This document shows, piece by piece, positions 4,169-60,718 of a DNA stretch of 64,000 bases; position 1 is the first letter of the stretch, and every line of letters begins with the position of its first letter. This stretch comes from Conchocele bisecta (lineage: Eukaryota > Mollusca > Bivalvia > Lucinida > Thyasiridae): assembly GCA_029237695.1 (NCBI GenBank), contig CM055277.1, positions 44,612,242-44,676,241 of the forward strand, written 5' to 3'. The notes under the pieces were generated by a model that saw nothing but the letters and a program-made list of their open reading frames with translations, searched no databases and was not told the DNA's origin. Both the position numbers and the translations under genes were made by a program.

Positions 4169-4560
4169 AGTAAATGATTTCGAGAGCTCTCCAAATCATT
4201 TAGAGATAGCTCCAAATGATTTAGAGAGCTCTCCAAATCAAGTTATATAATGCTCGCTACAAATGATTTCGAGAGCTCTCTAAATGATTTCGAGATATCA
4301 TTAATTGATTTCGAGAGCTCTCCAAATGATTTCGAGAGCTCTCCAAATCATTTAGAGATAGCTCCAAATGATTTAGAGAGCTCTCCAAATGATTTAGAGA
4401 TAGCTCCAAATGATTTATAGAGCTCTCCAAATCAAAGTTATATAATGCTCGCTACAAATGATTTCGAGAGCTCTTTAAATGATTTCGAGATATCATTAAT
4501 TGATTTCGACAGCTCTCCAAATGATTTCGAGAGCTCTCCAAATATTTATTGCTAGCTCCA
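4169..4560. repeat. Short tandem array, 21-22 bp units rich in GAGCTC
   Basis: Units alternate between 'aaatgatttcgagagctctcc' and 'aaatgatttagagatagctcc' types. A longer block containing 'gttatataatgctcgctac' and 'gagatatcattaattgatt' occurs at about 4240-4325 and again at 4437-4525, so a ~200 bp segment was itself duplicated. Most units carry the 6 bp palindrome GAGCTC. No coding content is seen. Confidence 0.9.
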
Positions 4561-37500: not shown

Positions 37501-40500
37501 AGGGAGACATTTTCAATTTAAGGATAAATTTTTAAATTTTTATTATACTGAATTTATTCAAATAAATTCAGTATAATAATTCTGCATACTTTTAATCGTC
37601 AAATATGTGCAGTGGTTAGTTCTATATGAAATAATGCATTTTGGGAAACATAAATAATTACTCCCTCAAAGTATACTTTGCTAGAAACGCATACTTTGCA
37701 ATGTTGGTGAAAATAGGCTACTGGTGAAATGGTACATTCCTGTAGCCTAATAATGATCCATTTCTCCAGTAACAGCCAAATATATAGACGGGAATTGCAC
37801 ATGTCTGGGGGAGTACCATATAGTCAGCATTACAATTACAAAATTGGCATGAGTGGCTACAACATATACTTTAATAATGAGAATTAAAAAGAATAACAGC
37901 TATTACAGGAGTGATCACAATACCCCCACAAACATCGCTTCGATACATGAACAGATTTAATATCAGAAATAGTGACAGCTAAGTGACCTTCGACGTAGAC
38001 ACGTGTGTATTGAACGCGACACATCGTCTCATCATGGCAAACATTTGTGGCAAATTATTTGAAAATCCATTCATCTGTTTAGAACATATAGAAACGAAAC
38101 AAAATTTGACCTTTGATCTCTAAGTGACCTTGGCCATAGATGTAGACACGTGGGTATTGAACGTGATACATTGTCTCATGATGGTAAACATTTGTAGCAT
38201 TTTTAAAAAAATAAAAATTTATCGGTTTAGAAGTAAATAGCGCGGAAACAAAATTTCCAACAGACAGACCAACACACAAGCTGACTCCTAAACACCCCCT
38301 AAACTTCGTTTGTGGGGGTAAATAAATATTTAAAAATTTGAAAATGTTAAAGTATCGGTACCATTAAGGATGCGCCACTTGACACACTGCCCACCTGCCA
38401 CCTACTGAAATTAGTTTTAGATGGCTACTTACCAGGTTCACTTAAAGCAAAGCAGCCCACGCGGTCGCCATTTAGGAATGGTGTCATGAATGTTTCCTTC
38501 TGGGCAGCAGTGGCATACTTGCTGATAGGTCCTAAATATAGCGACTGAAAAATAAATGTGTGGCTGTGACAGGAGAAATAGGGATTTTGTTTATTTCGTG
38601 ATTTTTTTGTGACCAGAGTAGATCCAGATCAGCCTGTGAATCTGCACCAAATCAGGATCTGTACCGTTCGCAATTCCATCATTGAAACACCCGTCATGCT
38701 TCTAACAATCAATATTGATCGTTATCAGGCTACAGGAGTGTGCTATTTGATCTGGTGCTACACTGGGTGCAATTCCCATAAACCCAATTTCTCAGTCACA
38801 GTCACAAATATGAATCCAGGGCTCCAGATAAGGAATTAGTAATTGAGTATTTTCACTCCATTATTTCTGAAGCAATAGGATATTTCAAAATTTTAACTAG
38901 AAAAAGTCGATGGCGCGCCATCGCAATATACCCACTTTCCCCAAATGCTAAGTCCGAAAGGGGGAGGTAATCCATGATGGAGGGTCGGATAAAAAATCCG
39001 AATTCACTTTGCGCATCAGCACATCAAAATGAAGCTACGAACCAAATATCAGACGCGTAGGTATTAAGGTGAAAAAGTTTTTCGAGTTACAAGGAAAAAA
39101 TGGGAAATTCTGAGTCCGAAAGGGGGAGATAATCCATGATGGAGGGTCGGATCAAAAATCCGAATTCACTTTGCGCATCTGCACATGATAACGAAGCTAC
39201 ATACCAAATATCAGGCGCGTAGGTATGAAGGTGAAAAAGTTTTTCGAGTTACAAGAAACGTGACGGACGGACGTACGGACGGACGGACGGACACCCGTGA
39301 CGAAAACAATATACCCATTTTTTTTTTACAAAAAAGTGGGTATAATTAGGTAAAATAAAATCATACTACTGTTTACACATCAACAGACAGCAATTATTGA
39401 TTACTTTGCTTCAAAATGAAAACATGTGTTGGCATTTCATTAGAATTGTCTCCTTGGAGACAATTCTAATGAAATACCAATACATGTATGTGTTTTCGAG
39501 GAATATAAGAAAAATATGCTATATTTGTGGTCTGTTTATTGTTTTCTGCAGCATGATAAAGGTACCACAAAATTGTTATTGCTTTTTGATACTCGCTACT
39601 TCTGATTTCAATTGGGTTTTTGGCAATTTTAATTGGGTATTTAAGCAAATACGCAGCTTATCTGGAGCTCTGTGATTCACAAATGACGACTTAGCTACTA
39701 GTGTCCAATTGTAACAGAGTGGTGCCTGTGGTTTTAAATTTGGGATAAACATATATTACAGTACTGCAGAAAAATGGGGAAAATGGTATACAAAAAATAG
39801 CTGGCTGGAAACATAAATTCTCGCCTACTGTTGTATTGTATCATATCTTCTTTCTCAATGAAAAATGTTTGACAGCTCTTTAGAATCCTTTCAAAACCAT
39901 GTTTTTTATGAGAAAACTAAGACAACAAAATGTACATGTAACCAGAGTTTTCAGTTGACTCTTTTTAAAAGGCAGTTTGACCCTTGAAAGTTTGAAAAAT
40001 CAGTTTTTGATCCTTGAAAATTCCACTTCAGGAGTCAAATATATCCACATTAATAGGAAATATGTTAAACTAGATTTGTCAGTAAGCGAGGCTTGCGGAA
40101 TACCTCCAGCGTGGGCCCAGGTACCCTAAATATGTAGTTATGACATATTTCTCTGATGTTAAGTTTAATGACGGACGGACACACAGACGGATGCACGGAC
40201 GGACGGACAACCCGACTCCAGAATACCCTCCCACAACTCGTTTCAAGTCTGATCTGAAAGACCAGTGGGTTTGTTTGTTTGTTTGTTTATTGGTGTTTAA
40301 CAGCCTATCAACAGCTAAGGTCATGTAAGGCCGGGCAAATGGGTTCAATCCCGTTTTAACCTGCTGCATTGGGAGAAAAATCCCAAAATCAGAACGGAAT
40401 ATTAACATCGAGAAAATATATATTCAGCCCTGAATTTAGAATAACCTGACCTGGTCCCAGGTCCATACCACACCAAGTCACTTGGCCCCTTCCCGTAAAA

Positions 40501-43500
40501 TAGGATTACGAATAATCGTAATACTCACATAAGGGGTATAGCCAGATTCACGTGCCCCATACAAAATGTCAAAGACGTATGTGAGGGCCAAACCAGGTAT
40601 CCAGTCGGAATTCCGGTAAGAGTGAACACCGATCGTTAAATTACCTATCGCATGCTCCCACCTGCCACCCACCAAAGAAAGACCAGTGGCATGGAAATAC
40701 TAAGAAAGTATGTTTTGATGTCCAAGGCAAGGTTTGAACCCACAAACTCCGGATTGGAAGTCACAGGTTCTAACCTCTAGGCCACAACCCGTCCCTAGCA
40801 GGCAGTAGAACTTACGCTGTTGACACACATGACATTGTTGACTGTACACCGGGTCATATAAACCAGTAGAACTTACGCTGTTGACACACATGACATTGTT
40901 GACTGTACACCGGGTCATGTAAACCACTAGAACTTACGCTGTTGACACACATGACATTGTTGACACACATGACATCGTTGACAGTACCCCGGGTAATATA
41001 AACCAGTAGAACTTACGTTGTTGACACACATGACATTGTTGACTGTACCCCGGGTAATATAAACCAGTAGAACTTATGTTGTTGACACACATGACATTGT
41101 TGACTGTACCCCGGGTAATATAAACCAGTAGAACTTACGGTGTTGACACACATGACATTGTTGACTGTACCCCGGGTAATATAAACCAGTAGAACTTACG
41201 TTGTTGACACACATGACATTGTTGACAGTACCCCGGGTAATATAAACCAGTAGAACTTACGCTGTTGACACACATGACATTGTTGACTGTACCCCGGGTC
41301 ATATAAACCAGTAGAACTTACGCTGTTGACACACATGACATTGTTGACACACATGACATCGTTGACTGTACCTCGGGTAATATAAACCAGTAGAACTTAC
41401 GTTGTTGACCAGTAGAACTTACGCTGTTGACACACATGACATTGTTGACTGTACCCCGGGTAATATAAACCAGTAGAACTTACGTTATTGACACACATGA
41501 CATTGTTGACTGTACCCCGGGTAATATAAACCAGTAGAACTTACGTTGTTGACACACATGACATTGTTGACAGTACCCCAGGTAATATAAACCAGTAGAA
41601 CTTACGCTGTTGACACACATGACATTGTTGACTGTACCCCGGGTCATATAAACCAGTAGAACTTACGCTGTTGACACACATGACATTGTTGACAAACATG
41701 ACATCGTTGACTGTACCCCGGGTAATATAAACCAGTAGAACTTACGTTGTTGACACACATGACATTGTTGACTGTACCCCGGGTCATATAAACAAGTAGA
41801 ACTTACGCTGTTGACACACATGACATTGTTGACTGTACCCCGGGTCATATAAACCAGTAGAACTTACGCTGTTGACACACATGACATTGTTGACAGTACC
41901 CCGGGTCATATAAACCAGTAGAACTTACGTTGTTGACACACATGACATTGTTGACTGTACCCCGGGTCATATAAACCAGTAGAACTTACGTTGTTGACAC
42001 ACATGACATTGTTCACTGTACCCCGGGTCATATAAACCAGTAAAACTTACGCTGTTGACACACTATAAGTTATTGTGATTCTACACAGGCTATATGGTGT
42101 AATATTGCCAGTCTGGAGGTATGTTCACCCGAGGGTGATCATACATTCAGACGGGCAATATTACACCACATAGCCTGTGTAGAATCACAATAACGTATTT
42201 GTCATACCGCAGATCCTGTATTTGGTCGTATAAACATATCTCTTCTTTTGATCTTTGCGTTTTTTCAGGAAGAAAAATAATCCGAGATTCGATTTTCTAC
42301 CGTCAGTCTTAATATAAAGGCGTAAATGAACATTTTGTTTTTTTATTAAACGAAAACAAACTAAATATGGAGTAAGAAATCCATCGAAAACGACTTTATG
42401 ACAGTTTTTTTTATATTGTGTAATTTAATATATATTCCACTGCTCTATCGATCTGCTCTCCCTTTGGCGCCTCTAGAATAATGCGACTGGTTCCCAAAAA
42501 TTCGCTGTCATTGCTACGCCGCGGTTTCGTGAGTGGAACCCATAGTTTGTGACGTAAATATAGCCGTGTCACGAAGTCGAGCGTGTTGAGATTTGAAAAG
42601 CAATTTTCGTTATTCTGGCTAATTTTTCGCTCATATTTTGATGAGCGAAGAATATTTATGGAAAAATAAACAGTAAAGACTGGTTTTGAGTGTACAATTT
42701 GTTACTTGTATTGATCAATTCGGGGTTTTATTGTGTTTAGTGAGGAATACAATTCGCAATCGCTAGACGCTTTCAAAATGTGTCTTCATTGGATGCGAGG
42801 CGCCGGAGGGGAATCGCAATTTCTCTATGTTCGACGGCCTTGGCAGGTCATATAATATATATGACCAGGCAAGCTAGCCAATCAAAAGCCGAGAAACTTA
42901 TCTGCGTATGACAAATGACATTGTTGACACACATGACATTGTTGACAGTACCCCGGGTCATATAAACCAGTAGAACTTACGCTGTTGACACACATGACAT
43001 TGTTGACTGTACCCCGGGTCATATAAACCAGTAGAACTTACGATGTTGACACACATGACATTGTTGACAGTACCCCGGGTCATATAAACCAGTAGAACTT
43101 ACGCTGTTGACACACATGACATTGTTGACACACATGACAATGTTGACAGTACCCCGGGTCATATAAACCAGTAGAACTTACGCTGTTGACACACATGACA
43201 TTGTTGACAGTACCCCGGGTCATATAAACCAGTAGAACTTACGCTGTTGACACACATGACATTGTTGACTGTACCCCGGGTCATATTGTAAGGAAATGAT
43301 CCTTACAATTTGATCAGATTTATTACCCTTTTTTGACTGCAAATACTTTATTAATAAGCACATTCACAGTGATGCATATTTTGGGTGATGAACTACATAA
43401 CTGCTAAATAAGCCATACCATTCACATTCTGCCGTGTGAATCACAACAGAATGAAATGTAATGGCCTTTGTTGACTGTTGACATGGATTGACACTTCTGT

Positions 43501-46500
43501 GGAGGTCACGTGACCACCTTTATTGGGCCAGTTTGTGCTGGGTCATCTTTACCATGGTGCCATACATACATATGTTGGTAGCTCAACCCTCCCCCTTAGT
43601 ATTTGCATAGGTGATCATATCTCGGACGTCATAATATCTACATTATTCTAATTATTTGTTCCGCAGTGCTCACAAAGTTTTGTGACCGCCATTATTTGAC
43701 TGTCAACTCACGCAGTCTTTCTGTTTGGCGGTCACTCATTAAATGAATGTTTATCTTCACAACTTTACACTTACCTGATGTATTCTGACATGCACAATCA
43801 TCTGGACATCTGACCGTCACGATATCTTAGCTATCTACGCTGTATTGTTAACATAAAGCCTAAACACGTAACTTTCAAATCCAAGATGGCGGAAACTTGA
43901 CAGTCAACGCTTGGCTGACTCTCAAATTTCCTGGCTACCGATTGGCTGACTGTCAGATCCAGTTTCTATATAAGGAATGATTCTCACAGATTCTCACTTC
44001 GGTCACTTCGATCACTTCGGTCACAAAGAGCAGACCAACGCTCAAATGCAGAACTTTCACTTTCACTAAAACTTCGTTCGGTCATTAGTTGTTGTTGTTA
44101 TAGATTCTTCCAGCCACTAATATTTCGGCTACTGCTAGTACTAGGCCTACAGTGTAATGCCATCCTGACAAACAATCGTGATAGAAATAATAAAGAAACT
44201 GAAACTTGTATCTTGTTTAGTCTACTCTAAACTGCCAACCAGGGTTTAGCTGCTAGCCTAACAATTAGTGTCAGAAGTGGGATGAAGTAACTTCATCCAG
44301 TGATAGAACCCACCTGGAACTGTATCAGTGTATGGAACTGCATTAAGAAAAAAATAATAATTCTACCGTATACATCATAACAATTAATTCGCATAAGTAG
44401 ATGAACAGTTGTATTGTATTAATACACTTACTCTATTGCTACAGAAGCAGATGAAATCCAGAATAAAGACAGTGTCTAAAAAAAAACCCACAAAACAAAA
44501 ACAGTCACACCAGCAACAAATTGCAACATAAACTTTTATTAACAACCTAAGTGTAATGATTATACTGGAAACAAATTGCAACATAAAGTTTTAGTTACAA
44601 AGTGGCGATATTTGATGTTTACAACCGTATAATGATAAATAATTAAATAAATCAGTGTTTTATTGTGAAAGTGGACATCAAGTGGGGAAAAAAACCAAGT
44701 AACACTTATGTCAAGTTCTATTCCCGAAGCCCAGCGTCATGAGAACAGTGGACAGTCTGAACAACAGCAGATAATTGGATCGATAGGCCTACATTAGATG
44801 AAGATTACCTGTACCTTGGTGTACCATTTGATAATAGAGAAATGTCACACTCTGGAGCAAACTCACCTTTGTTCGACTATGACAACGCAGTCAATGATAT
44901 CGACCATGTACCTACTATCAAACCAGAACCATTCGATGGGAACTCCGATTGGGAAGCCTTCTTCGCCCATTTTACCATCTGCACCGAACTTGGGAAATGG
45001 AATCAACGGACCAGGACATTAGTACTTCAGACATGCATGCATGGTGAAGCATGTGTGTTTCTGCTCTCTCTCCAAAGAAGAAAGAAGTTCATACAGCACT
45101 TTAGTGGATAAATTTAGCAGCCGATTTGGATACGCCAACAATGAGAGCATGTGGCTAGAATCTTTTAACGGCAGACAACGGAAACCTGGGGAGTGTATAG
45201 CAGCATGTGCTGATGACATTCATAGGTTAGTCAGGAGAGCATATTCTGCACTGAATTGCGCTGCACATGAAATTTTATCACTTCACCAGCTGTACAAATC
45301 TCTTTCCAAAAGAATGCGATACCAGTGTGCAATATCCCATTACACATCCATGGACATGGTGGTGAACATTGTCACAACGTACGAGAGCATCCTGGGACCT
45401 GATATTGAACAATACAGTGCAGCCACCGAAATACCAAATGGGAGTGACCGGAGTCAAACAGACAATGATGTGCCGCAAACGATGTCCTACAGACCGCGGC
45501 GTGGAGACATTGGTTGGGACATGGAGTTCGTCTAGAGAAAATAATAGAAAAAAACAGAAAAAAAACAAAAAAAACAATAAAAATCGCAAAACTAACTTTT
45601 CGATAAACTGGACAACTGCTTTGAACTAAATATATATATTGGACTTACTATGAGACAATCAATAACTGTGAGTGCATATAATCCACATACTGAAATGAAG
45701 CGATCAGTTACTACTTCTAATTATAATGTAGGAGACAGTATCTGCTGAAGACTTGTTTATCGAAATTGTTGATGACCATCAATGACAATAGTATTATAAT
45801 TAAATTGTCGGAATTCTGAGCAAGGTGTAACTAACTAGACCTAGGTCGTGATAGTCAGCGCTATTTAGTACCGGTACTACATTTATTGAAGAGTGCATAG
45901 TTGAATTAACGGAGGATTTAGATGGCTTTATACGGAGAGATGTCGATTGTGAAATACAGGAACACATAAAAAAAACATGTTAAATGGGAACGCGTTGTGT
46001 AAACGCATGTGATATGGATAGAGTCTAGTGCCGTTGCGACGATGATATTGGTTGGGTTCGAGGCTGATCAGCGAAATCATTATCTAAACAAATATGCTAT
46101 CTGTGTAGGGACTGGCCTGATCAACCGGTTGCTTACGAACGATGTATTGTGTCTATGGGCAAGAACGTTAGGTTAGTGGTTGTGGTATAGTCATCAACAG
46201 GTATTTAATTGACCGATGGCCGGGACTGCCATAGCCACTTCCGTGTGCCGTGATCTATATGTTAATTACTATTGGAGGAGTACCGTCGGCATGATACGGC
46301 TGGAAGACTAGACTATTTTGTAGAAAAATGTGGTTCCTGTGATGTCGAGGTGTCAGCAGCTATGGTTGCGTGCTGATTTTTGATGTCTCCGTCTACCCGT
46401 GGATTTATGTAAACTACCACACCGTGAAGACCGATAGCCTGGCTGAACTACCAAGTTGATGTGTATCTTGAATGGCCACCAAGATACTACTAACGGGAAC

Positions 46501-52500: not shown

Positions 52501-55500
52501 TATAAACCAGTAGAACTTACGTTGTTGACACACATGACATTGTTGACTGTACCCCGGGTCATATAAACCAGTAGAACTTACGTTGTTGATACACATGACA
52601 TTGTTCACTGTACCCCGGATCATATAAACCAGTAAAACTTACGCTGTTGACACACTATAATTTATTGTGATTCTACACAGGCTATATGGTGTAATATTGC
52701 CCGTCTGGAGGTATGTTCACCCGAGGGTGATCATACATTCAGACGGGCAATATTACACCATATAGCCTGTGTAGAATCACAATAACGTATTTGTCATACC
52801 GCAGATCCTGTATTTGGTCGTATAAACATATCTCTTCTTTTGATCTTTGCGTTTTTTCAGGAAGAAAAATAATCCGAGATTCGATTTTCTACCGTCAGTC
52901 TTAATATAAAGGCGTAAATGAACATTTTGTTTTTTTATTAAACGAAAACAAACTAAATATGGAGTAAGAAATCCATCGAAAACGACTTTATGACAGTTTT
53001 TTTTATATTATGTAATTTAATTTATATTCCACTGCTCTATCGATCTGCTCTCCCTTTGGCGCCTCTAGAATAATGCGACTGGTTCCCAAAAATTCGCTGT
53101 CATTGCTACGCCGCGGTTTCGTGCGTGGAACCCATAGTTTGTGACGTAAATATAGCCGTGTCACGAAGTCGAGCGTGTTGAGATTTGAAAAGCAATTTTC
53201 GTTATTCTGGCTAATTTTTCGCTCATATTTTGATGAGCGAAGAATATTTATGGAAAAATAAACAGTAAAGACTGGTTTTGAGTGTACAATTTGTTACTTG
53301 TATTGATCAATTCGGGGTTTTATTGTGCTTAGTGAGGACGCTAGACGCTTTCAAAATGTGTCTTCATTGGATGCGATGTGCCGGAGGGGAATCGCAATTT
53401 CTCTATGTTCGACGGCCTTGGCAGGTCATATAATATATATGACCAGGCAAGCTAGCCAATCAAAAGCCGAGAAACTTATCTGCGGTATGACAAATGACAT
53501 TGTTGACACACATGGCATTGTTGACAGTACCCCACCTCATATGACAAATGTTAGCACCTTACCGTTGTTACACACATGGACATTGTTGACTGTACCCAGG
53601 GTCGTCATATACAGTAGAACGGGTACGTTAGTTAATTGTTCACAGACATGTTGCACCCCTGACACGTTGTTGACTGTTACCACCCCGGGTCATATAAACC
53701 AGTAGAACTTACGCTGTTGACAAACATGACATTGTTGAAACACATGACATTTCTGACAGTACCCCGGGTCATATACAGTAAAACCTTACCGCCTGTTGAA
53801 AACACCCCACCATTGAACATTGTTGACTGTTACCCCGTCCCATATAAACAGTAGAACTTACGGTGTTGACACACATGACATTGTTGTGACTGTACCCAAA
53901 GGGTCATATAAACATAGAACCTTACGCTGTGACCCACAAACATTACAAAAAAAATGTTGAAGGGTACCCTGTCATATTAAACACCCCATAATGACAATTG
54001 TTGACACCAGGGTTCAATATATAAACCGTAGAACATACGCTGTTGACACACATGACATTGTTACAGTGTCATATAAACCAGTAGAACTTACGTGTTGACA
54101 CACAATGACATTGTTGACAGTACCCCGGGTCATAACCAGTAGAACTTCGTTGTTGACACATTGACTGTACCACGGGTCAAATAAACCAGTAGAACTGACA
54201 TCATTGTTGACTGTACCCCGGGTCATATAAACCAGTAGAACTTACATTGTTGACACACATGACATTGTTGACTGTACCCCGGGTCATATAAACCAGTAGA
54301 ACTTACGTTGTTGACACACAGACATTGTTGACTGTCACATACCAGTAAGAACTTACGTTAGTTGACCACACATTGACATTGTGAACTTGACGTTGTTACG
54401 TATATAAACCAGTACTACGTACTGTTGCACACTGACATTGTTGACTGTCCACCCCTATATTACAGTCATATAAACCAGTAGAACTTTACTTGTTGACACA
54501 CATGACATGTTGACTGTTACCCCGGGTCATATAAACCAGTAGAACTTACGTTGTTGACACATGACGTTTACACCGTCATACCAGAAAAACTTTACTTGTT
54601 GACACACATGACATTGGACTGACCCCGGGTCATATAAACCAGTAGAAACTTACGTTGTTGACACATGACTGTTACCATTTTGCCATCATATAAACCATGA
54701 AACTTACGTTGTTGACACACTGACATTGTTGACTGTACCCGGGTCATATAAACCAGTAGAACATACGTTGTTGAACACACATGACATTGTTGACTGACCC
54801 CCCGGGTCCATATAAACGGGGTTAGAACTTACGTGTTTGACACACAAGTCATTGTTGACTTGTACCCCTGTTATATAAAACCAGTAAGAACATACGTGAC
54901 ACACAATGACTTGTTGACTGTACCACGGGTTATAATTAAACCAGTAGAACGTACGTTGTTGACACACATGACATTGTTGACTGTACCCCGGGTCATATAA
55001 ACCAGTAGAACTTACGTTGTTGACACACATGACATTGTTGACTGTACCACGGGTCATATAAACCAGTAGAACTTACGTTGTTGATACACATGACATTGTT
55101 GACTGTACCACAGGTCATATAAACCAGTAGAACTTACGTTGTTGACACACATGACATTGTTGACTGTACCCCGGGTCATATAAACCAGTAGAACTTACGT
55201 TGTTGACACATTGACTGTACCACGGGTCATATAAACCAGTAGAACTTACGTTGTTGACACACATGACATTGTTGACTGTACCCCGGGTCATATAAACCAG
55301 TAGAACTTACGCTGTTGACACACATGACATTGTTGACTGTACCCCGGGTCATATAAACCAGTAGAACTTACATTGTTGACACACATGACATTGTTGACTG
55401 TACCCCGGGTCATATAAACCAGTAGAACTTACATTGTTCACACTCATGATGACGCCGGTGGTGGCACAGCCGCGACTGACCTCCTCCATGGCGATGGCGT

Positions 55501-58500
55501 ATGCAAGGTAGTCGAGCCCTGTCCCGCCCTCGTCATCCGGTATATCCACACACAGCAGCCCGATCTCACCCAGCATCTTCACCTACAGACAATTTAAACA
55601 AGCCATGTGATTTTGTATCTATCTATTTATTTATTTAATCCTTTCAACAGTACAGACCTCTATAGCGGTGTTTGCAAACAGTGTAGATCCAGTGTATCTA
55701 TCTATTTATTTATTTAATTGTGTTTAACAGCCAGTCACAGAGCTCCAGATAAGCTGCGTATTTTACGCAATTATTTTACCTGAATAAGCATTGATTATCG
55801 TACAAAATACGCACAGCAATGTGCAAATGCGCATTGGATTTCAAATCGAGTAGTGAAAATACTGTCACAAAGTTGAACATTCACTTAGTTGAGCTGCAAA
55901 AAGCAAACAGTGTTTGCTTTTTGCAGCTCAAATAAGTGAATGTTTAAAATTGTTATATTTTTTTTATCATTTGTTCCCTATTTAGTAATGAACACAAGAA
56001 TTCCGCCACGGAAGCGGTGTTGCGCCTACCGAGGCATTTGACTGTGAACATTACAAGTAAATAAATTACCTTGACCTTCAGAATTTGGATGTGGGGGTGT
56101 GTGTAATGAAGCATCATCCGTAGACAAACATTGATGTGAAATATTATCAATGTCTGGAAAGGGGTTAAAGAGATATTGTGAAAAAACAATAACTTTAACG
56201 CATTTCTGTTACAAATCCGGTGAACATTACAAGTAAATAAATGACCTTGACCTTCAAAATTTGGATGTGGGGGTGTGCGTAATGAAGCATCATTCCTAGA
56301 CAAACATTGATGTGAAATATTATCAAAGTCTGGCAAGGGGTTAAAGAGATATTGTGAAAAAACAATAACTTTAACGCATTTCTGTTACAAAACCGGTGAA
56401 CATTACAAGGAAATAAATGACCTTGACCTTCAAACTTTGGATGTGGGGGTGTGCGTAATGAAGCATCATCCCTAGACAAACATTGATGTGAAATATTATC
56501 AATGTCTGGCAAGGGGTTAAAGAGATATTGTGAAAAAACAATAACTTTAACGCATTTCTGTTACAAAACCGGTGAACATTACAAGTAAATAAATGACCTT
56601 GACCTTGAGAATTTGAATGTGGGGGTGTGCGTAATGAAGCATCATCCCTAGACAAACATTGATGTGAAATATTATCAAAGTCTGGCAAGTGTTAAAGAGA
56701 TATTGTGAAAAAACAATAACTTTAACGCATTTCTGTTACAAATCCGGTGAACATTACAAGTAAATAAATGACCTTGACCTTGATAATTTGGATGTGGGGG
56801 TGTGCGTAATGAAGCATCATCCCTAGACAAACATTGATGTGAAATATTATCAATGTCTGGCAAGGGGTTAAAGAGATATTGTGAAAAAAAAATAACTTTA
56901 ACCCATTTATGTTACAAAACCGCTGAACATTACAAGGAAATAAATGACCTTGACCTTCAAAATATGGATGTGGGGGTGCGCGTAATGAAGCATCATTCCT
57001 AGACAAACATTGATGTGAAATATTATCAAAGTCTGGCAAGGGGTTAAAGAGATATTGTGAAAAAACAATAACTTTAACGCTTTTCTGTTACAAATCCGGT
57101 GAACATTACAAGTAAATAAATGACCTTGACCTTCAAAATTTGGATGTGGGGGTGTGCGTAATGAAGCATCATGCGTAGATAAACATTGATGTAAAATATT
57201 ATCAATGTCTGGCAAGGGGTTAAAGAGATATTGTGAAAAAAACAATAAGTTTAACGCATTTGCCTTAAAAAAAAACTGGACGACGACTCGGACGACGACG
57301 ACGCGGACGACGACGGAAAATACGACGACTATAGCGACAAAAATCAATAATTCACTTGTAAAAGTAAAATACGCAATGATTTTGAAATCAGGGGCTATAG
57401 TACGCTTTATACACAAAGCTTATCAGGAACTCTGCAGTCAACAGCTATGGTCATTTTAGGCCAGGTATTTTGTATCTAAGATGTGTGATTTCTCATGAAA
57501 TATCTAATTTCAGATACTTTCTGTAAATGGCGTCAAAAGTTGACGAAAATTTCAGAGAATTCTGCATTTGCTATGAAAAATTCCATCAACTTCCGACGTC
57601 ATTTACAGAAAATATCACAGTTTCTGTAAATAGTTTTCATGAAAAAGTGCACATCTTCTTAAATACACCAGATGGCTGCGGCCCGCATGTCGAGCCCTCC
57701 CAGGCATTTGATGGTATTTTTACAAACTTGAACGCAGATTTCGAACGGACGGACGACCCACCAATAGTGAAGAAGGGGCCATTTCCATTTTTCTAGATCA
57801 AAGAGATGGCCCCTGGTAATGAATAGAATAAGGGGCCACACGGAATAAATCAAAGGATTATTTTGTGTTAGGCTCCGCCCCATGGCCCCTTCTACACTCT
57901 TGGTTGCTCGGACAGACGGACGCACGGACGTCATTGTGATCACTATGTCTCGCTTTCCGTAAGCAGGCTCGACAAAAATCACATGGCTTGTCTCAAATGC
58001 GGTGTCTTCATTTCATACGTTGTGATTTAACATTTGCAGTTGAACTGATTAACATCACGTTTGTCAATGGAAATTTTCAATTAGAGATTATTCCACCGTA
58101 TATTTTGAAAAGCAGGAAATAATGCACTCAGCAACTTCACCTACATGTACATGGACAAAACTGTCGACTTTGTTTCATAAGTTGTGATTCAAAATTGGTA
58201 GATAAAACGAACACGACCCTTTCACCCCCAAATATCTGGTGACGTTAACAGTTCCATACCCATTTTTAGAATATTCTATTAATCATGTACCATATTTATT
58301 CTAATAATAGCCCCCCCAAGCCCCCAACCAACCCACATATAGCCCCCCTCCAAACCACCCCACCCCCCCCCCCCACCCCCACCCTCCCCTCTCTGAAATA
58401 CTAGAGCCCACTCCTATAAATTTCTGTGTTTTTATGCAATTACCAATACAATGCAAGAATTGCTTCAGAAAATCAATGAAACACCCATTATGCTTCTAGC

Positions 58501-58689
58501 TAGCAAAACAGATCGTTATCAGGCTACAGTAGTCTGCTATAAGCCCCATTTCTCCAGTCACAGCCACATATGTGAACCTGTTTTGCTGGGTAGGTGGAGT
58601 CTTTGTCAATCTGGCCAGCAATTGGCTTCAATTCATGGTCGGCGAAGTCGCGACATGTTTGCTGCAAGATCCTGTGGGTCTCTGGCAGG
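22416..58689 (-). CDS. ACADS: Short-chain acyl-CoA dehydrogenase, mitochondrial; gene of 11 identified exons (first exon not found)
   Basis: The enzyme is an FAD-dependent homotetramer in the mitochondrial matrix. It makes the first double bond in short-chain acyl-CoA (mainly butyryl-CoA) during beta-oxidation and passes electrons to ETF. Eleven exons, all bounded by GT-AG, join in frame to about 380 codons, close to the mature human protein. FAD/substrate signature ALSEPGNGSDAG spans exons 4-5. The second family signature, [20 protein letters not shown], and the catalytic-base glutamate in [10 protein letters not shown] are in the last exon. Exons are 58578-58689, 55433-55582, 38433-38544, 36106-36221, 33260-33295, 31063-31233, 30560-30616, 28345-28425, 25470-25565, 23809-23865 and 22416-22571. 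The missing first exon should encode the mitochondrial targeting peptide; it may lie above 60.7 kb or outside the window. Introns are greatly expanded. Exons 2 and 3 adjoin minisatellites made from their own splice junctions. Confidence 0.95.
22758..23342. mobile_element. TTAA-flanked non-autonomous element, copy 2
   Basis: TTAA lies at 22754-22757 and 23343-23346. The left end is 'aggtgcccacacag' (diverged) and the right end 'actgagtgggcaatgtacct'. The interior shares 'aaataagtgtaat', 'cactattccacgagttcta' and 'gttggtatcaag' motifs with the copies at 12576 and 28892. It lies in the last intron. Confidence 0.85.
23484..23562. repeat. Hairpin repeat
   Basis: The left arm 'gaaagtatatgttgtgacca' and the central 'tgaaccgtctc' are mirrored by 'gagacggttca' and the inverse of the arm, meeting at about 23526. 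The arms resemble the palindrome at 27685-27732. Confidence 0.88.
23809..23865 (-). CDS. ACADS: ACADS exon 11
   Basis: It encodes [19 protein letters not shown] (19 codons). The acceptor is 'ttgtag|GAG' and the donor 'CAG|gttagt'. In the family this is a helix of the C-terminal domain that packs near the FAD. Confidence 0.95.
24204..24620. repeat. Dispersed ~410 bp repeat, third copy
   Basis: It begins 'ttattggtgtttaatggcct', contains 'ggcgttcgatcctgcattt', a G-rich stretch at 24294-24311, 'ctggtgccaggtccatacc', and ends 'cacatgctcccaattgccac'. It lies in intron 10. Confidence 0.85.
24624..24795. repeat. 'actagatggc...' dispersed element, copy 1
   Basis: It starts 'actagatagccacggcccgc' and ends 'cgctgtcagcaagtgggcca', with 'aaaaactttaacctggacg' and short 'gtacgta' repeats between. 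Related copies are at 33804 and 57666. The start resembles the higher-order marker of the satellite at 1 and 931. Confidence 0.7.
25222..25382 (-). mobile_element. tRNA-derived SINE, minus strand, copy 1
   Basis: On the minus strand the head reads 'gtggcctagaggttaggaca' (A box) and 'gagttcaatccccgcc' (B box). The body continues to 'tttcaagtcacat'-type sequence at 25250. The same family is at 29395-29812 and 40680-40797. Confidence 0.78.
25470..25565 (-). CDS. ACADS: ACADS exon 10
   Basis: It encodes 32 residues from [20 protein letters not shown] to GEPYTK, matching the KLADM...[15 protein letters not shown] region of the family. The acceptor is 'gacag|ATG' and the donor 'AAG|gtaact'. Confidence 0.95.
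25925..27055. repeat. Segment with scattered 'gtaacggtaatgac' motifs
   Basis: About ten copies of a 13-14 bp motif or its inverse are spread through this intron 9 segment. They occur near 25968 (inverse), 26285, 26310, 26329, 26637, 26655, 26690, 26850, 26910 and 27037. No coding region or clear ends were found. Confidence 0.6.
27585..27812. mobile_element. Foldback element with nested palindrome
   Basis: Ends are 'gttttatccggtcttaacca' and its near inverse 'tggttaagaccggatacaac'. The core 'gaaagtatatgttgttactc' and its inverse meet at 'ctcgag' near 27705. Nearly the whole ~228 bp folds on itself. Confidence 0.88.
28060..28336. repeat. Dispersed element with an inverted-repeat core
   Basis: 28225-28335 is an inverted repeat: 'ttgaaatttgcggcgtatat' and 'cagaaaatgataggtcgga' against their inverses, with a short loop near 28265. 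28060-28215 matches 21255-21425 in the opposite orientation ('ctgattggctgatggtcat'). Confidence 0.8.
28345..28425 (-). CDS. ACADS: ACADS exon 9
   Basis: It encodes [20 protein letters not shown] then AKLQAIQ (27 codons), the family motif 'R.AFG.P...LQ.IQ'. The acceptor is 'tttgcag|GCT' and the donor 'CAG|gtaata'. Confidence 0.96.
28892..29379. mobile_element. TTAA-flanked non-autonomous element, copy 3 (best-preserved ends)
   Basis: TTAA lies at 28888-28891 and 29380-29383. Left end 'aggtacatgcccactcagta' and right end 'tactgagtgggcatgtact' form a ~24 bp terminal inverted repeat that continues through 'ggcacaaa' and 'tttgtgcc'. It is 488 bp with no coding capacity. Confidence 0.92.
29395..29812 (-). 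mobile_element. tRNA-derived SINE, minus strand, copy 2, split by a MITE
   Basis: The tRNA-like head (minus strand: 'gtggcctagggataagaaca' and 'ggttcaaacctcgcctg') is at 29733-29812. The body continues at 29395-29463 on the other side of the element at 29472-29725. Confidence 0.8.
29472..29725. mobile_element. MITE with 8 bp flanking duplication, copy 1
   Basis: Terminal sequence 'tatttcacgaacattgcaaa' is inverted at the right end as 'tttgcaatgttggtgaaat'. 'ctgatgcc' flanks both sides (29464-29471, 29726-29733). The 8 bp duplication fits hAT-type transposition. It is inserted in a SINE. A second copy is at 37448-37720. Confidence 0.83.
30560..30616 (-). CDS. ACADS: ACADS exon 8
   Basis: It encodes [19 protein letters not shown] (19 codons), the conserved 'LD.GRIGIA.QALGIAQ' helix. 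The acceptor is 'ttttgcag|CAA' and the donor 'CAG|gtatgc'. Confidence 0.97.
31063..31233 (-). CDS. ACADS: ACADS exon 7
   Basis: It encodes 57 residues starting [20 protein letters not shown], then [10 protein letters not shown] and [20 protein letters not shown], covering the end of the middle beta domain. The acceptor is 'gacag|GGT' and the donor 'ATG|gtaagt'. Confidence 0.97.
31498..31812. repeat. 50 bp tandem repeat ending in an inverted unit
   Basis: Six units start at 31501, 31551, 31601, 31651, 31701 and 31751 with an exact 50 bp period. Each contains 'ccaattttggtaacc' and the hairpin-capable 'gtcctgaatcaggac'. The array then inverts: 31782-31812 is the reverse complement of a unit, so the right end folds back. 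Confidence 0.95.
31995..32237. mobile_element. Foldback element with 'cagagctcc' ends, copy 1
   Basis: Left 'cacagctccatttaaggtgc' and right 'gcatcttaactggagctctg' are inverted. The arms continue inward to the hairpin 'tagaatcgtctcattgagac' near 32140. Part of the left arm ('ggcaagttgggagtgcttta') is duplicated. Related larger copies lie at 38816-39672 and 55737-57434. Confidence 0.87.
32238..33259. other. Intron 6, left part: no gene seen
   Basis: It is AT-rich. 32940-33150 has two stretches resembling 'ctctctaaactggacac' and 'gtgtccggtttagagaggtt', the same motif that heads the ~115 bp array at 35440. Confidence 0.5.
33260..33295 (-). CDS. ACADS: ACADS exon 6 (36 bp micro-exon)
   Basis: It encodes [12 protein letters not shown] (12 codons), the loop joining 'AVVFASTD' and 'KGISAF' in vertebrate enzymes. 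The acceptor is 'gcag|GTT' and the donor 'CAG|gttagt'. Both neighbouring exons join in frame only through it. Confidence 0.93.
33340..33580. repeat. Tandem duplication of ~118 bp
   Basis: 'atccaacaaca', 'attccaaattgaaatctcct' and 'gttgtgtacacattattatt' occur twice, about 120 bp apart, a few tens of bp upstream of the micro-exon. Confidence 0.85.
33600..35440. repeat. Dense dispersed repeats in intron 5
   Basis: 33804-33990 is the second 'actagatggccgtggtctgc' element, ending 'gctttccgcaagcgggtgcg'. 'gaagt(a/t)tcaaggtaatggg' plus 'gcagttgcagagatatagt' occurs at about 34010 and 34163. A ~185 bp block with 'cacatgttggatagt', 'caccccttg' and 'ggtggtcctaggtggtacag' occurs at 34320 and 34505. 'acttgactt/acgacttattgcgtgg' segments recur near 33675, 34820 and 34960. 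No coding region was seen. Confidence 0.7.
35440..36060. repeat. Degenerate ~115 bp tandem array beside exon 5
   Basis: Five to six diverged units each carry a 'tgtc(t/c)g(g)ttt...agaggttcta' box, 'ttgaccgtattgattgg'-type sequence and 'ggcaaccctacttaaa'. Boxes fall at about 35470, 35593, 35703, 35825, 35940 and 36035. The array ends less than 60 bp from the exon 5 donor. Confidence 0.75.
36106..36221 (-). CDS. ACADS: ACADS exon 5
   Basis: It begins in phase 1 (completing Gly), then [20 protein letters not shown] and [18 protein letters not shown]. It completes the FAD/substrate-binding signature. The acceptor is 'tttcag|GTA' and the donor 'GTT|gtaagt'. Confidence 0.97.
36286..36512. mobile_element. 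Palindromic MITE, 'gattttgtacctaaga' family, copy 1
   Basis: The left end starts 'gagacataacatgtgatttt' and the right end is inverted ('aaaatcatttggtgtgtctc'). 'tcatgaaaaata' and 'gacatcaaaagttgacg' also pair with their inverses, so the whole 227 bp can fold. Copies are at 57462-57994 (interrupted) and 60894-61095. Confidence 0.87.
36520..37447. other. Intron 4, left part: no gene seen; one hairpin
   Basis: 37145-37195 is a hairpin: 'catgagaatcgtctccactg' and its inverse. It resembles hairpins near 32140, 39455 and 23526 in the central 'gtctc...gagac'. Confidence 0.55.
37448..37720. mobile_element. MITE, copy 2 of the family at 29472
   Basis: Left 'tagcctatttcaccaacatt' and right 'aatgttggtgaaaataggct' are inverted. 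Inside, 'actgaatttattcaaataaattcagt' is a further short palindrome. No clear 8 bp flanking duplication is present in this copy. Confidence 0.85.
37721..38432. other. Intron 4, right part: no gene seen
   Basis: Two diverged copies of 'acacgtg(t/g)gtattgaacg' with 'gacacat(c/t)gtctcat' occur at about 38000 and 38148, so a ~148 bp local duplication is present. Confidence 0.5.
38433..38544 (-). CDS. ACADS: ACADS exon 4
   Basis: It encodes [30 protein letters not shown] and CFALSEP plus one base, the first half of the FAD-binding signature. The acceptor is 'tttttcag|TCG' and the donor 'CCTG|gtaagt'. Exon 3 ends ...IMSVNN, and VNN-SLYLGP is the normal family junction. Confidence 0.97.
38816..39672. 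mobile_element. Foldback element with 'cagagctcc' ends, copy 2, with a nested element
   Basis: Ends are 'gggctccagataagg' and 'cttatctggagctctg'. It contains the element at 38927-39344 and a hairpin at 39420-39490 ('agaattgtctccttggagac'). Confidence 0.7.
38927..39344. mobile_element. Element bounded by 'tatacccactt' inverted repeats, with internal duplication
   Basis: 'tatacccacttt' at the left and 'aaagtgggtata' at the right are inverted. A ~160 bp block with 'gtccgaaagggggag' and 'tccatgatggagggtcgga' occurs twice (38950, 39113), followed by 'gacggacggacg' repeats. A perfect 16 bp palindrome 'cgatggcgcgccatcg' lies just outside at 38908. Confidence 0.78.
39673..40265. other. Intron 3, left end: no gene seen
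   Basis: It is AT-rich. 40140-40210 contains a 'gacggacgga' stretch like the ones at 33920 and 39245, near 'agtaagcgaggcttgcgga', probably the remains of a dispersed element. Confidence 0.5.
40266..40672. repeat. Dispersed ~410 bp repeat, fourth copy
   Basis: It starts 'tgtttgtttgtttattggtg', contains 'gggttcaatcccg', 'cctggtcccaggtccatacc' and 'ggggtatagccagatt', and ends 'cgcatgctcccacctgccac'. Confidence 0.87.
40680..40797 (-). mobile_element. tRNA-derived SINE, minus strand, copy 3
   Basis: The minus-strand head is 'gttgtggcctagaggttaga' (A box) and 'gggttcaaaccttgcc' (B box). It abuts the donor-site minisatellite at 40799. Confidence 0.8.
40799..42064 (-). repeat. Splice-donor minisatellite, block 1 (near-perfect units)
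   Basis: Units are ~61 bp, or ~82 bp when one segment is doubled. On the minus strand each reads 'gtcatgtgtgtcaacaa(c/t)' then 'gtaagttctactggtttat' then 'gacccggggtacagtcaa'. The first part copies the last codons of ACADS exon 3 (ATC ATG AGT GTG AAC AAT) with three changes. 'gtaagttctactgg' copies its splice donor and intron start exactly. Units here are very similar to one another. Confidence 0.96.
42065..42912. mobile_element. ~0.85 kb hairpin/TIR element inside the donor array, copy 1
   Basis: 42070-42193 is a ~124 bp inverted repeat ('ttattgtgattctacacagg' and its inverse). It is followed by 'atttgtcataccgcagat' (about 42199), whose inverse 'atctgcgtatgacaaat' is at the right end. Near the right end 'gtcatataatatatatgac' is another palindrome. 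There is no coding region. A second copy in the same array context is at 52657-53492. Confidence 0.85.
42913..43286 (-). repeat. Splice-donor minisatellite, block 2
   Basis: Several near-perfect ~61/82 bp units lie between the hairpin element and the LTR retrotransposon. The last unit is cut at 'gggtcatat', where the LTR element inserted. Confidence 0.96.
43287..44263 (+). repeat. 5' long terminal repeat
   Basis: It runs TGTAAGG...CTAACA with TG/CA ends. The first 21 bp form a hairpin (tgtaagga / tccttaca). A TATA box 'tatataag' is at 43967-43974 and a poly(A) signal 'aataaa' at 44189-44194, giving plausible U3, R and U5 regions. 'cacttcggtcacttcg' repeats lie just after the TATA box. Confidence 0.95.
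44264..44841 (+). other. Leader of the LTR element
   Basis: It begins 'attagtgtcagaagtgggat' directly after the LTR, where a primer-binding site is expected. The priming tRNA was not identified. Two ~60 bp similar stretches ('caaattgcaacataaa') occur at 44516 and 44572. No gene was seen before the gag ATG. Confidence 0.6.
44842..45535 (+). pseudogene. gag of the LTR element, broken by one frameshift
   Basis: The first frame (44842-45111) contains [19 protein letters not shown] and '[12 protein letters not shown]', the usual start of a Ty3/gypsy capsid domain. The second frame continues to 45535 with '[13 protein letters not shown]' and '[15 protein letters not shown]'. The shift lies in a CT run near 45063-45075 and looks like a one-base loss. 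No zinc knuckle is visible downstream. It is a remnant or a passively carried gag. Confidence 0.82.
45536..46908 (+). other. LTR element interior without recognisable coding sequence
   Basis: Pol would be expected here but none of its motifs was found. An A-rich tract (45540-45590) follows gag. A 73-codon frame at 46684-46905 has no recognised similarity. Confidence 0.6.
46909..46921 (+). promoter_or_regulatory. Polypurine tract
   Basis: 'aaggtggggggag' lies immediately before the 3' LTR, the expected primer for plus-strand DNA synthesis. Confidence 0.9.
46922..47892 (+). repeat. 3' long terminal repeat
   Basis: It is nearly identical to 43287-44263. Differences seen are 'cataattt' for 'catatttt', 'gttagtag' for 'gttggtag', 'ctcagattt' for 'ctcaaattt', and one missing 'tttcac' unit. 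Confidence 0.95.
47893..52656 (-). repeat. Splice-donor minisatellite, block 3 (irregular centre)
   Basis: The same unit as block 1. Units at 47893-48230 and about 52370-52650 are clean. From about 48180 to 52350 units show frequent small insertions and deletions, homopolymer changes ('accccccccccgtc') and lost segments. Most still keep 'acttacg(c/t)tgttgac' (the donor on the minus strand). Open frames here are repeat translations. Confidence 0.93.
52657..53492. mobile_element. ~0.85 kb hairpin/TIR element inside the donor array, copy 2
   Basis: It is nearly identical to 42065-42912, including the 52662-52785 inverted repeat. It lacks a ~15 bp stretch near 53337. The preceding array unit shows the same variants ('ttgttcactgtacc', 'agtaaaacttacgctg') as before copy 1, so the element was copied together with flanking array. 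Confidence 0.88.
53493..55432 (-). repeat. Splice-donor minisatellite, block 4, abutting exon 3
   Basis: 53493-54950 is irregular. 54950-55432 is clean and runs directly into the exon 3 donor at 55427-55432, which is itself the last 'gtaagttctactgg' of the series. The array therefore starts at the real exon-intron border. Confidence 0.95.
55433..55582 (-). CDS. ACADS: ACADS exon 3
   Basis: It encodes 50 residues: [40 protein letters not shown] and [10 protein letters not shown]. The acceptor is 'ctgtag|GTG' and the donor 'AAT|gtaagt'. The last 18 bases and the donor are the source of the minisatellite that fills intron 3. Confidence 0.97.
55583..55736. other. Intron 2, start: low-complexity and half MITE
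   Basis: 'aagccatgtgattttgtatc' is one end of the palindromic MITE family at 36286. 'atctatctatttatttattt' occurs twice. Confidence 0.6.
55737..57434. mobile_element. Foldback element with 'cagagctcc' ends, copy 3, carrying a 176 bp tandem array
   Basis: Left 'cagagctccagataagctgc' is inverted at the right end ('aagcttatcaggaactctgc'), with a few changes. Near the left end is a ~70 bp hairpin (55876-55945; arms 'acattcactta' and 'gagctgcaaaaagcaaaca'). The interior is mostly the tandem array at 56040-57275, followed by 'gacgacgacg' repeats. Confidence 0.72.
56040..57275. repeat. 176 bp tandem array, seven units
   Basis: 'acaaacattgatgtgaaata' recurs at about 56124, 56300, 56476, 56652, 56827, 57002 and 57178. 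Units contain 'gaccttgacctt', 'gtgggggtgtgcgtaatgaa' and 'gttaaagagatattgtgaaa'. Overlapping ~105-codon open frames on the minus strand are copies of the repeat, not genes. Confidence 0.95.
57462..57994. mobile_element. Palindromic MITE, copy 2, split by a nested element
   Basis: The left half starts 'attttgtatctaagatgtgt' and the right end is 'aaaatcacatggcttgtctc'. 57666-57975 ('gatggctgcggcccgcatgt' to 'cgctttccgtaagcaggctc') is the third copy of the element at 24624, inserted near the right end. Confidence 0.75.
57995..58577. other. Intron 2, right part: no gene; C-rich low complexity
   Basis: 58308-58395 is C-rich ('ccaccccacccccccccccc'). 58430-58560 resembles 38650-38800 ('acacccattatgcttcta', 'gatcgttatcaggctaca'), another dispersed repeat. 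Confidence 0.6.
58578..58689 (-). CDS. ACADS: ACADS exon 2
   Basis: It encodes (S)[20 protein letters not shown] and [17 protein letters not shown]. The donor is 'CAG|gttcac'. The acceptor chosen is 'tggccag|C CTG CCA', which places LPETH where the vertebrate enzyme has ELPETH. The same acceptor and first ~26 exon bases are present in every unit of the adjoining array, so the acceptor actually used cannot be fixed from sequence alone. Confidence 0.92.
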
Positions 58690-60718
58690 CTGGCCAGGCA
58701 GGACACCCCTCTAGCCTGCTTCAGCACAGTACCTACAACATAGCAAGATCCTGTGGTCTCTGGCAGGCTGGCCAGGCAGGACACCCCTCTAGCCTGCTTC
58801 AGCACAGTACCTACAACATAGCAAGATCCTGTGGTCTCTGGCAGGCTGGCCAGGCAGGACACCCCTCTAGCCTGCTTCAGTACAGTACCTACAACATAGC
58901 AAGATCCTGTGGTCTCTGGCAGGCTGGCCAGGCAGGACACCCCTCTAGCCTGCTTCAGTACAGTACCTACAACATAGCAAGATCCTGTGGGTCTCAGGTA
59001 GGCTGGCCAGGCAGGACACCCCTCTAGCCTGCTTCAGCACAGTACCTTGAACATAGCAAGATCCTGTGGGTCTCAGGTAGGCTGGCCAGGCAGGACACCC
59101 CTCTAGCCTGCTTCAGCACAGTACCTACAACATAGCAAGATCCTGTAGTCTCTGGCAGGCTGGCCAGGCAGGACACCCGTCTAGCCTGCTTCAGTACAGT
59201 ACCTACAACATAGCAAGATCCTGTAGTCTCTGGCAGGCTGGTCAGGCAGGACACCCCTCTAGCCTGCTTCAGCACAGTACCTACAACATAGCAAGATCCT
59301 GTGGGTCTCAGGCAGGCTGGCCAGGCAGGACACCCCTCTAGCCTGCTTCAGCACAGTACCTACAACATAGCAAGATCTTGTAGTCTCTTGGCAGGCTGGC
59401 CAGGCAGGACACCCCTCTCGCCTGCTTCAGCACAGTACCTTGAACATAGCAAGATCCTGTGGGTCTCCGGCGACAGCAGCAGTACTAGAACACCCCCTAG
59501 GCTCTAGCCTGCTTCAGCACAGTACCTACAACATAGCAAGATCCTGTGGGTCTCCGGCAGGCTGGCCAGGCAGGACACCCCTCTAGCCTGCTTCAGCACA
59601 GTACCTACAACATAGCAAGATCCTGTGGTCCTCTGGCAGGCTGGTCAGGCAGGACACCCCTCAGCCTGCTTCAGGCAGTACTACAACATAGCAGATCTTG
59701 TGGGTCTCCCCGGCCGCTGGCCACAGGACACCCCTCACCTGCTTCAGGCCACACAGGTACCTAAACAAAGCATGATCCTGGGTGGTCTCCCGACAGGGCT
59801 GGCCAGGCAGGACACCCCTCTAGCCTGCTTCAGTACAGTACCTACAACATAGCAAGATCCTGTGGGTCTCCGACAGGCTGGCCAGGCAGGACACCCCTCT
59901 AGCCTGTTTCAGCACAGTACCTACAACACAGCAATATCCTGTGGTCTCTGGCAGGCTGGCCAGGCAGGACACCCCTCTAGCCTGCTTCAGCACAGTACCT
60001 ACAACATAGCAAGATCTTGTGGGTCTCCGGCAGGCTGGCCAGGCAGGACACCCCTCTAGCCTGCTTCAGCACAGTACCTACAACATAGCAAGATCCTGTG
60101 GGTCTCCGACAGGTTGGCCAGGCAGGACACCCCTCTAGACTGCTTCAGCTCAGTACCTACAACATAGCAAGATCCTGTGGGTCTCCGGTATGCTGGCCAG
60201 GCAGGACACCCCTCTAGCCTGCTTCAGCACAGTACCTACAACATAGCAAGATCCTGTGGATCTCCGACAGGCTGGCCAGGCAGGACACCCCTCTAGCCTG
60301 CTTCAGCACAGTACCTACAAGATAGCAAGATCCTGTGGTCTCTGGCAGGCTGGCCAGGCAGGACACCCCTCTAGCCTGCTTCAGCACAGTACCTACAACA
60401 TAGCAAGATCTGTGGATCTCCGACAGGCTGGCCAGGCAGGACACCCCTCTAGCCTGCTTCAGCACAGTACCTACAACATAGCAAGATCCTGTGGGTCTCC
60501 GACAGGCTGGCCAGGCAGGACACCCCTCTAGCCTGCTTCAGCACAGTACCTACAACATAGCAAGATCCTGTGGTCTCTGGCAGGCTGGCCAGGCAGGACA
60601 CCCCTCTAGCCTGCTTCAGCACAGTACCTATAACATAGCAAGATCCTGTGGTCTCTGGCAGGCTGGCCAGGCAGGACACCCGTCTAGCCTGCTTCAGCAC
60701 AGTACCTACAACATAGAA
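58660..60718 (-). repeat. Splice-acceptor minisatellite, 78/79 bp, about 26 units
   Basis: On the minus strand each unit reads 'ttgtaggtactgtgctgaag', 'caggctagaggggtgtcctg', 'cctggccag' (the acceptor), then 'cctgccggagacccacagga' and 'tcttgctatg'. The part after the acceptor copies the first ~26 bases of exon 2. Units of 78 bp have lost one C of 'acccac'. That keeps the repeat open in one frame, while 79 bp units meet a TAG. 59460-59780 is more degenerate. The array adjoins exon 2 on its upstream side. Confidence 0.96.

Follow-up and report, generated by a model that had tools for sequence, protein, structure and literature searches.

Splice-junction minisatellites at two exons of the ACADS gene in the bivalve Conchocele bisecta, and junction duplications in other genes of the same genome

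Minisatellite-like duplications of intron-exon boundaries, or mirages, have been described at both borders in amphioxus globin genes (Ebner et al., 2010; PMC3087553), where Adh3 is cited as a previous example; PGBD5 and troponin C are further amphioxus cases (PMC3902484). In the globin report, the data suggest that regular splicing is undisturbed, and the duplications were proposed as a route to intron gain (PMC3087553). Intron gain by tandem duplication has also been discussed for other organisms, including a potato case in which the segment comprises an intron end and an exon start (PMC4974935). Here, we describe two arrays of this kind in ACADS, a minus-strand gene of the bivalve mollusc Conchocele bisecta, within a window of 64,000 bp (C13:44612242-44676241 of the 1.89-Gb assembly). 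The window is the whole stretch analyzed, and feature positions below refer to it. One array, with a 61-bp unit, repeats the donor junction of exon 3; the other, with a 79-bp unit, repeats the acceptor junction of exon 2.

The ACADS arrays resemble the amphioxus mirages (Adh3, BflGb6, BflGb9, PGBD5 and troponin C) in that both units span an exon-intron boundary, the copies carry splice signals (25 AG/GTAC sites in one array and 97 GTAAGT in the other; a slash marks the boundary), and junction duplications are found in several unrelated genes of the same genome (14 of 97 exons, from three families). They differ in their bivalve host, in the presence of two arrays in one gene, in that their frequency has been measured, and in being known here from DNA sequence alone. 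The arrays contain ~135 unit lengths and 26 copies, compared with 6 and 3 units in the two amphioxus BflGb6 haplotypes. With intron gain by tandem duplication (potato RdRp, ATP2A1 and fission yeast) they share the duplication of an AG/GT segment, and the potato combination of intron end and exon start resembles the 79-bp unit (PMC4974935); unlike those cases, the ACADS copies lie inside existing introns, and no new intron has been demonstrated that would support the runaway intron gain suggested when the arrays were first noted. Our search of the open-licence literature returned junction minisatellites from amphioxus only, and a mollusc report in subscription journals may exist. The structure is of a known kind, in a phylum that is new as far as this search extended; it is common in this genome and not exceptional in ACADS.

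The gene was recognized as ACADS from ten coding pieces located by tblastn between ~58.7 and 22.4 kb, using a human ACADS query. Among the 120 proteins listed, that of Mya arenaria was closest to the joined product (83%), followed mostly by other molluscs. The exons adjoining the arrays are exon 2 (58572..58732, minus strand, 161 bp), supported by tblastn, reading frame, splice sites and alignment of bivalve proteins, and exon 3 (55433..55582, minus strand, 150 bp), which ends in ATCATGAGTGTGAACAAT/gtaagt with its last base at 55433. Exon 4 (38433..38544, minus strand), supported by tblastn, frame and splice sites, closes intron 3 at ~16.9 kb. Intron 3 lies between VNN and SLYL, a position at which animal genes have presumably long had an intron. 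A search for exon 1 under permissive criteria gave six candidates, none of them convincing, and a piece of ~12 residues between exons 5 and 6 was likewise not located; the figure of 11 exons for ACADS is therefore a minimum. Intron 2 contains a separate 176-bp array of 6.9 copies (56044-57261, minus strand), identified with Tandem Repeats Finder (TRF), which touches no exon.

The 79-bp array (58664..60716, minus strand; 26.0 copies by TRF) is built from a contiguous piece of the gene, 10 bp of intron 1 followed by 69 bp of exon 2, which bears out the proposal, made in an earlier sequence-only reading of this window, that the unit came from the ACADS acceptor junction. Its final copy (58664-58732) is the first 69 bp of exon 2 itself. 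Upstream of the true exon lie 25 units, of which 12 measure 79 bp, 10 measure 78 bp and 3 have another length. The joints read ATTC/TATGTTGTAG on the left, TTGC/TATGTTGTAG between units and TTGC/AGCAAAC at the right end (here, the slash marks the repeat joint), as produced by plain tandem duplication with one shared base. The 25 AG/GTAC sites include the true acceptor, which is most likely TTGTAG/GTACTG at 58732; because exon 1 was not found, this start of exon 2 is placed from homology and splice signals. Read from the true site, or from its three nearest neighbours (58810, 58888 and 58966), the frame continues into exon 2 without a stop; the other 21 run into one. The sequence-only reading had instead taken 'cctggccag' as the acceptor, with ~26 exon bases per unit in place of the 69 that the upstream acceptor gives. 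That assignment is very probably wrong: the frame through this motif aligns with coding sequence of Saccostrea, Pinctada, Mytilus and Tegillarca (matching residues NARSLSSLADLPDTHRML in Saccostrea and TVRSLSSLAELPETHQML in Mytilus), with a poorer alignment to Mya, which places the start of exon 2 further upstream.

The 61-bp array (40803..55449, minus strand) consists of the last 17 bp of exon 3, the donor GTAAGTTCTACTGG and adjoining intron, and is interrupted by inserted elements. The TRF run reaches 17 bp into the exon. When exon 3 was compared in register with the first intronic unit, 15 of these 17 bases matched, whereas only 12 of the preceding 44 exon bases did, which is the level expected by chance. 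No shuffled 61-bp unit among 20,000 equaled the observed score in the fixed register, and 8 of 20,000 did so when any of the 61 rotations was allowed; the score of the exon 3 match was equaled at none of the 98,256 positions compared outside the array. Chance resemblance of the unit to exon 3 was rejected on these shuffles, and the match is far better than for random units of this length, a comparison that had been suggested beforehand. The claimed copy of the exon 3 end within the unit is thus upheld, whereas the 'identical donor' to which it was said to be joined is trivial, as the exon 3 donor belongs to the array's own first unit. Both units derive from splice junctions of ACADS itself, as had been proposed: the 79-bp unit is contiguous gene sequence, the 61-bp unit matches the exon end in register, and neither was found elsewhere among the best genome candidates scored. 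AAT precedes GT at the end of exon 3 and in the first unit; among the 97 GTAAGT in the stretch, the preceding triplet is AGC in 38 cases, AAC in 32 and AAT in 4.

Counted in 500-bp bins, insertions and deletions in the 61-bp array amount to ~8-22% from 48 to 54.5 kb, compared with 2-5% at 55.0-55.4 and 41-42 kb (9% in the last bin, which is short), with the rate inflated by an 18-bp sub-repeat that our script scored as an insertion. The indel-rich middle is probably in part consensus error and resembles unpolished long-read consensus. After subtraction of the inserts, ~8.4 kb of repeat sequence remains, equivalent to ~135 unit lengths; this copy number is unreliable because the middle of the array carries so many small indels.

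To place ACADS in context, three Pfam families were surveyed in the same genome, giving 97 exons and 194 junctions. These came from the matches listed for the ACAD C-terminal domain (16 rows, 13 used; ACADS itself, L045, and two rows of a bacterial-type open reading frame, L048 and L049, were left out), the myosin head (71 rows, all used, from the best 65 of 269 candidates scored) and the E1-E2 ATPase domain (17 rows, 13 used; four bacterial-type rows were left out). For each junction, a 60-bp piece across the exon edge was taken and a second copy sought in the adjoining outside 250 bp; the final automatic rule allowed ±10 bp around the domain-match edge and took the outermost copy. A first pass over 76 exons (152 junctions) gave scores of 54-115 at 11 junctions and of 31 or less at the other 141, leaving a clear gap. 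Scored in the same way, the two array-bearing edges of ACADS reach 120 (exon 2 acceptor) and 54 (exon 3 donor), and the other 18 edges compared score 27 or less.

Of 97 donors and 97 acceptors, the automatic count scored 10 and 5, respectively, as duplicated. By hand, the L059 donor was added (the domain match stops 12 bp short) and the L066 acceptor was removed (a simple CAAT-type repeat), so that the total remained 15 of 194 and became 11 donors (L050, L054, L059, L060, L063, L066, L072, L090, L091, L102 and L129) and 4 acceptors (L072, L093, L110 and L137), at 14 of 97 exons, or about one in seven. The last eight myosin exons fetched showed no junction duplication. Five of the donors carry arrays of at least 2.5 copies by TRF: a 31-bp unit over at least 1.5 kb in L050; a 62-bp unit in 9.1 copies in L054, which we take to be ACAD8-like; a 64-bp unit in 5.9 degenerate copies with a short exon part in L059; a 68-bp unit in L063, with 7.1 copies before the stretch ends; and a 110-bp unit in 2.7 copies, again up to the stretch end, in L091. 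Two near misses were left uncounted, L103 with a 29-bp array from about the donor and L092 with a 38-bp array starting slightly inside the intron. A genome scan for other repeats spanning an exon-intron border was proposed with the original observation; in this three-family sample they recur, in ACAD paralogues, myosins and P-type ATPases. The survey also showed a cluster of myosin-head exons at C3:20661166-20908647 in which the exon encoding domain positions 28-82 recurs in several closely similar versions, which may be alternative exons or copies of the gene. Bacterial DNA, from a symbiont or contaminant, seems to lie within the bivalve assembly: contig C895 (at least 1.84 Mb long) and contig C400 carry uninterrupted bacterial-type genes (a 574-aa acyl-CoA dehydrogenase frame and P-type ATPase frames of 776-916 aa).

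Control points were counted automatically only, whereas the count at the survey junctions was adjusted after inspection. By the same three-try rule as for junctions, a local second copy was found at 40 of 361 points within introns of the ACAD loci, or at 23 of 276 once the four donor-array loci are set aside. In positions 1-40700 of the window plus 40 kb upstream, the count was 39 of 975 points for the strand of the gene and 43 of 971 for the opposite strand, and in exon interiors it was 6 of 278 points, 5 of these 6 falling in one stop-containing match (L074). A simpler count that kept the bulk of long arrays gave 103/499, 7/76, 88/674 and 46/648 for four non-coding window sets. Junctions are therefore duplicated as often as the ACAD-locus introns (15/194 versus 23/276, P = 0.86) and more often than exon interiors (6/278, P = 0.0055). 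Neither all junctions (P = 0.12) nor acceptors alone differ from the pooled non-coding control of 62/1251. At these rates, 1.5 junction duplications are expected over the 20 internal edges of ACADS, and two or more have a probability of 0.47. The double occurrence in an 11-exon gene therefore needs no special cause, and the earlier argument that chance could hardly produce two such events in a single gene is not supported.

We consider it likely, with a probability of roughly 0.8, that both arrays are mirages that arose from pervasive local tandem duplication outside coding sequence, were tolerated at exon edges and were enlarged as minisatellites. Each would have started when a local duplication fell, by chance, across an exon-intron border, and would have grown by unequal exchange or slippage, as in other minisatellites. 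Local duplication appears to be so frequent here that exon borders are struck at about the rate of nearby introns. A duplication at a border would leave one junction intact, and the surplus exon ends and splice sites would be removed with the intron; because the surplus copies lie on the intron side, such a duplication would escape selection, unlike one in an exon interior. Splicing would use the first donor of the 61-bp array, and the last acceptor of the 79-bp array or one of three copies upstream of it that keep the frame. In the literature that our search reached, mirages come from a handful of amphioxus genes, and in this mollusc they become countable, at about one sampled exon in seven. 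With a countable rate, it is possible to measure genome-wide whether junction duplication keeps pace with that in introns, whether it is aimed at donors, and whether exons or introns are gained from the copies.

Several observations weigh against this reading. Donors exceed the pooled control (11/97 versus 62/1251, P = 0.016; 10/97 in the automatic count, P = 0.033), and 5 of 12 multi-copy arrays lie at donors where 0.59 would be expected under uniform placement (P = 5e-5 over 76 exons and 94 kb; P = 0.003 when either kind of junction is counted). A gene with two multi-copy arrays is more unusual than one with two junction duplications of any size (0.6 multi-copy arrays expected, P about 0.12). 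The sample also comprises three families, with many of the myosins paralogues of one cluster, and the evidence comes from the DNA of one individual in a single assembly. These donor results would be explained by an origin targeted to 5' splice sites, where R-loops, nascent RNA bound by U1 or by a stalled spliceosome, or a chromatin step at exon ends would raise the frequency of duplication; the greater number of donors than acceptors (11 versus 4, P = 0.10) points the same way. However, the two controls disagree on the donor excess, as there is no clear excess over the ACAD-locus introns (10/76 versus 23/276, P = 0.26 for donors). In addition, the donor tests were picked, and the multi-copy placement test was framed, after the first cases had been seen, which makes the latter a lead, and acceptors may be rare simply because a duplicated acceptor disturbs splicing more strongly. 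We regard targeting as unlikely. Breakage or slippage aimed at junctions through R-loops or U1, as first suggested for ACADS, is not needed to account for the overall junction rate, although donors do exceed the broader control. It is similarly doubtful that donors are preferred starting points of minisatellites at which a process tied to the 5' splice site duplicates DNA two to eight times as often as elsewhere. If they were, donor-targeted duplication would be a standing intronic supply of donor-plus-exon copies for new exons or introns.

The concentration of GTAAGT in the 61-bp array (97 in a 14.6-kb stretch, versus 10 elsewhere in the window on that strand) could alternatively mean that rows of donors were selected as a decoy or sponge, binding U1 and acting in splicing or shielding long introns from premature polyadenylation. 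This is very improbable: only one or two extra copies are present in 9 of the 15 counted junction duplications, at least one of them (L060) has lost its donor, the 61-bp array is broken by inserted elements, and there was no sign of selection among the tests made.

Chance likeness to exon 3 or an assembly artefact might be suspected from the mere 17 bp of exon in the 61-bp unit and the indel-rich middle of the array, and is just as improbable given the shuffling results in register and under rotation, the much cleaner outer parts of the array and the same phenomenon in other genes. Introner elements are dispersed families of repeats with splice signals at intron borders. The ACADS arrays share that feature, one of them begins at the exon edge and the genome is repeat-rich, yet a mobile, intron-making element of this type, or a dispersed satellite landing at splice sites, is the least probable explanation and was rejected, as dimers of the units searched against the whole genome matched this locus only (75 of 75 matches of the 61-bp dimer at 40818-55432 and 25 of 25 of the 79-bp dimer in its own array; only the best candidates were scored, so the result is strong and not absolute), and the junction arrays inspected in other genes each have their own unit, made of their own exon end and donor. 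Similar copies dispersed in many genes were likewise not found among the best candidates. The exact 14-mer GTAAGTTCTACTGG has 57 copies in the genome (50 in the array and 7 elsewhere), compared with 39 for the reversed control pattern.

An LTR (long terminal repeat)-type element at 43287..47890 (minus strand; edges accurate to a few bases) sits within a single 61-bp unit; its type is assigned from two direct repeats of ~0.97 kb that are 99.1% identical and from an ATAT target duplication. A 0.8-kb element with a long imperfect palindrome at its end lies inside the array at 52670..53495 (minus strand), and a second copy at 42070..42925 (minus strand) has similar joints with the repeat and is 97.3% identical, flanks included. 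This second copy is best read as having been carried along when array material duplicated. As the LTR-type element falls within a unit and the 0.8-kb element occurs twice with similar joints, the 61-bp array is older than these elements and was rearranged after their insertion.

The sequence at 40270-40800 (minus strand), where the 61-bp array has its distal end, looks by eye like a tRNA-derived, SINE (short interspersed nuclear element)-like sequence with a CAAA tail, parts of which recur at 24.2-24.6, 21.6-22.0, 29.7-29.8 and 25.3-25.4 kb. Positions 1-4172 of the window are occupied by a higher-order satellite of 158/181/339 bp, with related 158/181-bp repeats in locus L057, and four successive frames at 15627-18910 (plus strand) appear by eye to be a broken LINE (long interspersed nuclear element)-type reverse transcriptase.

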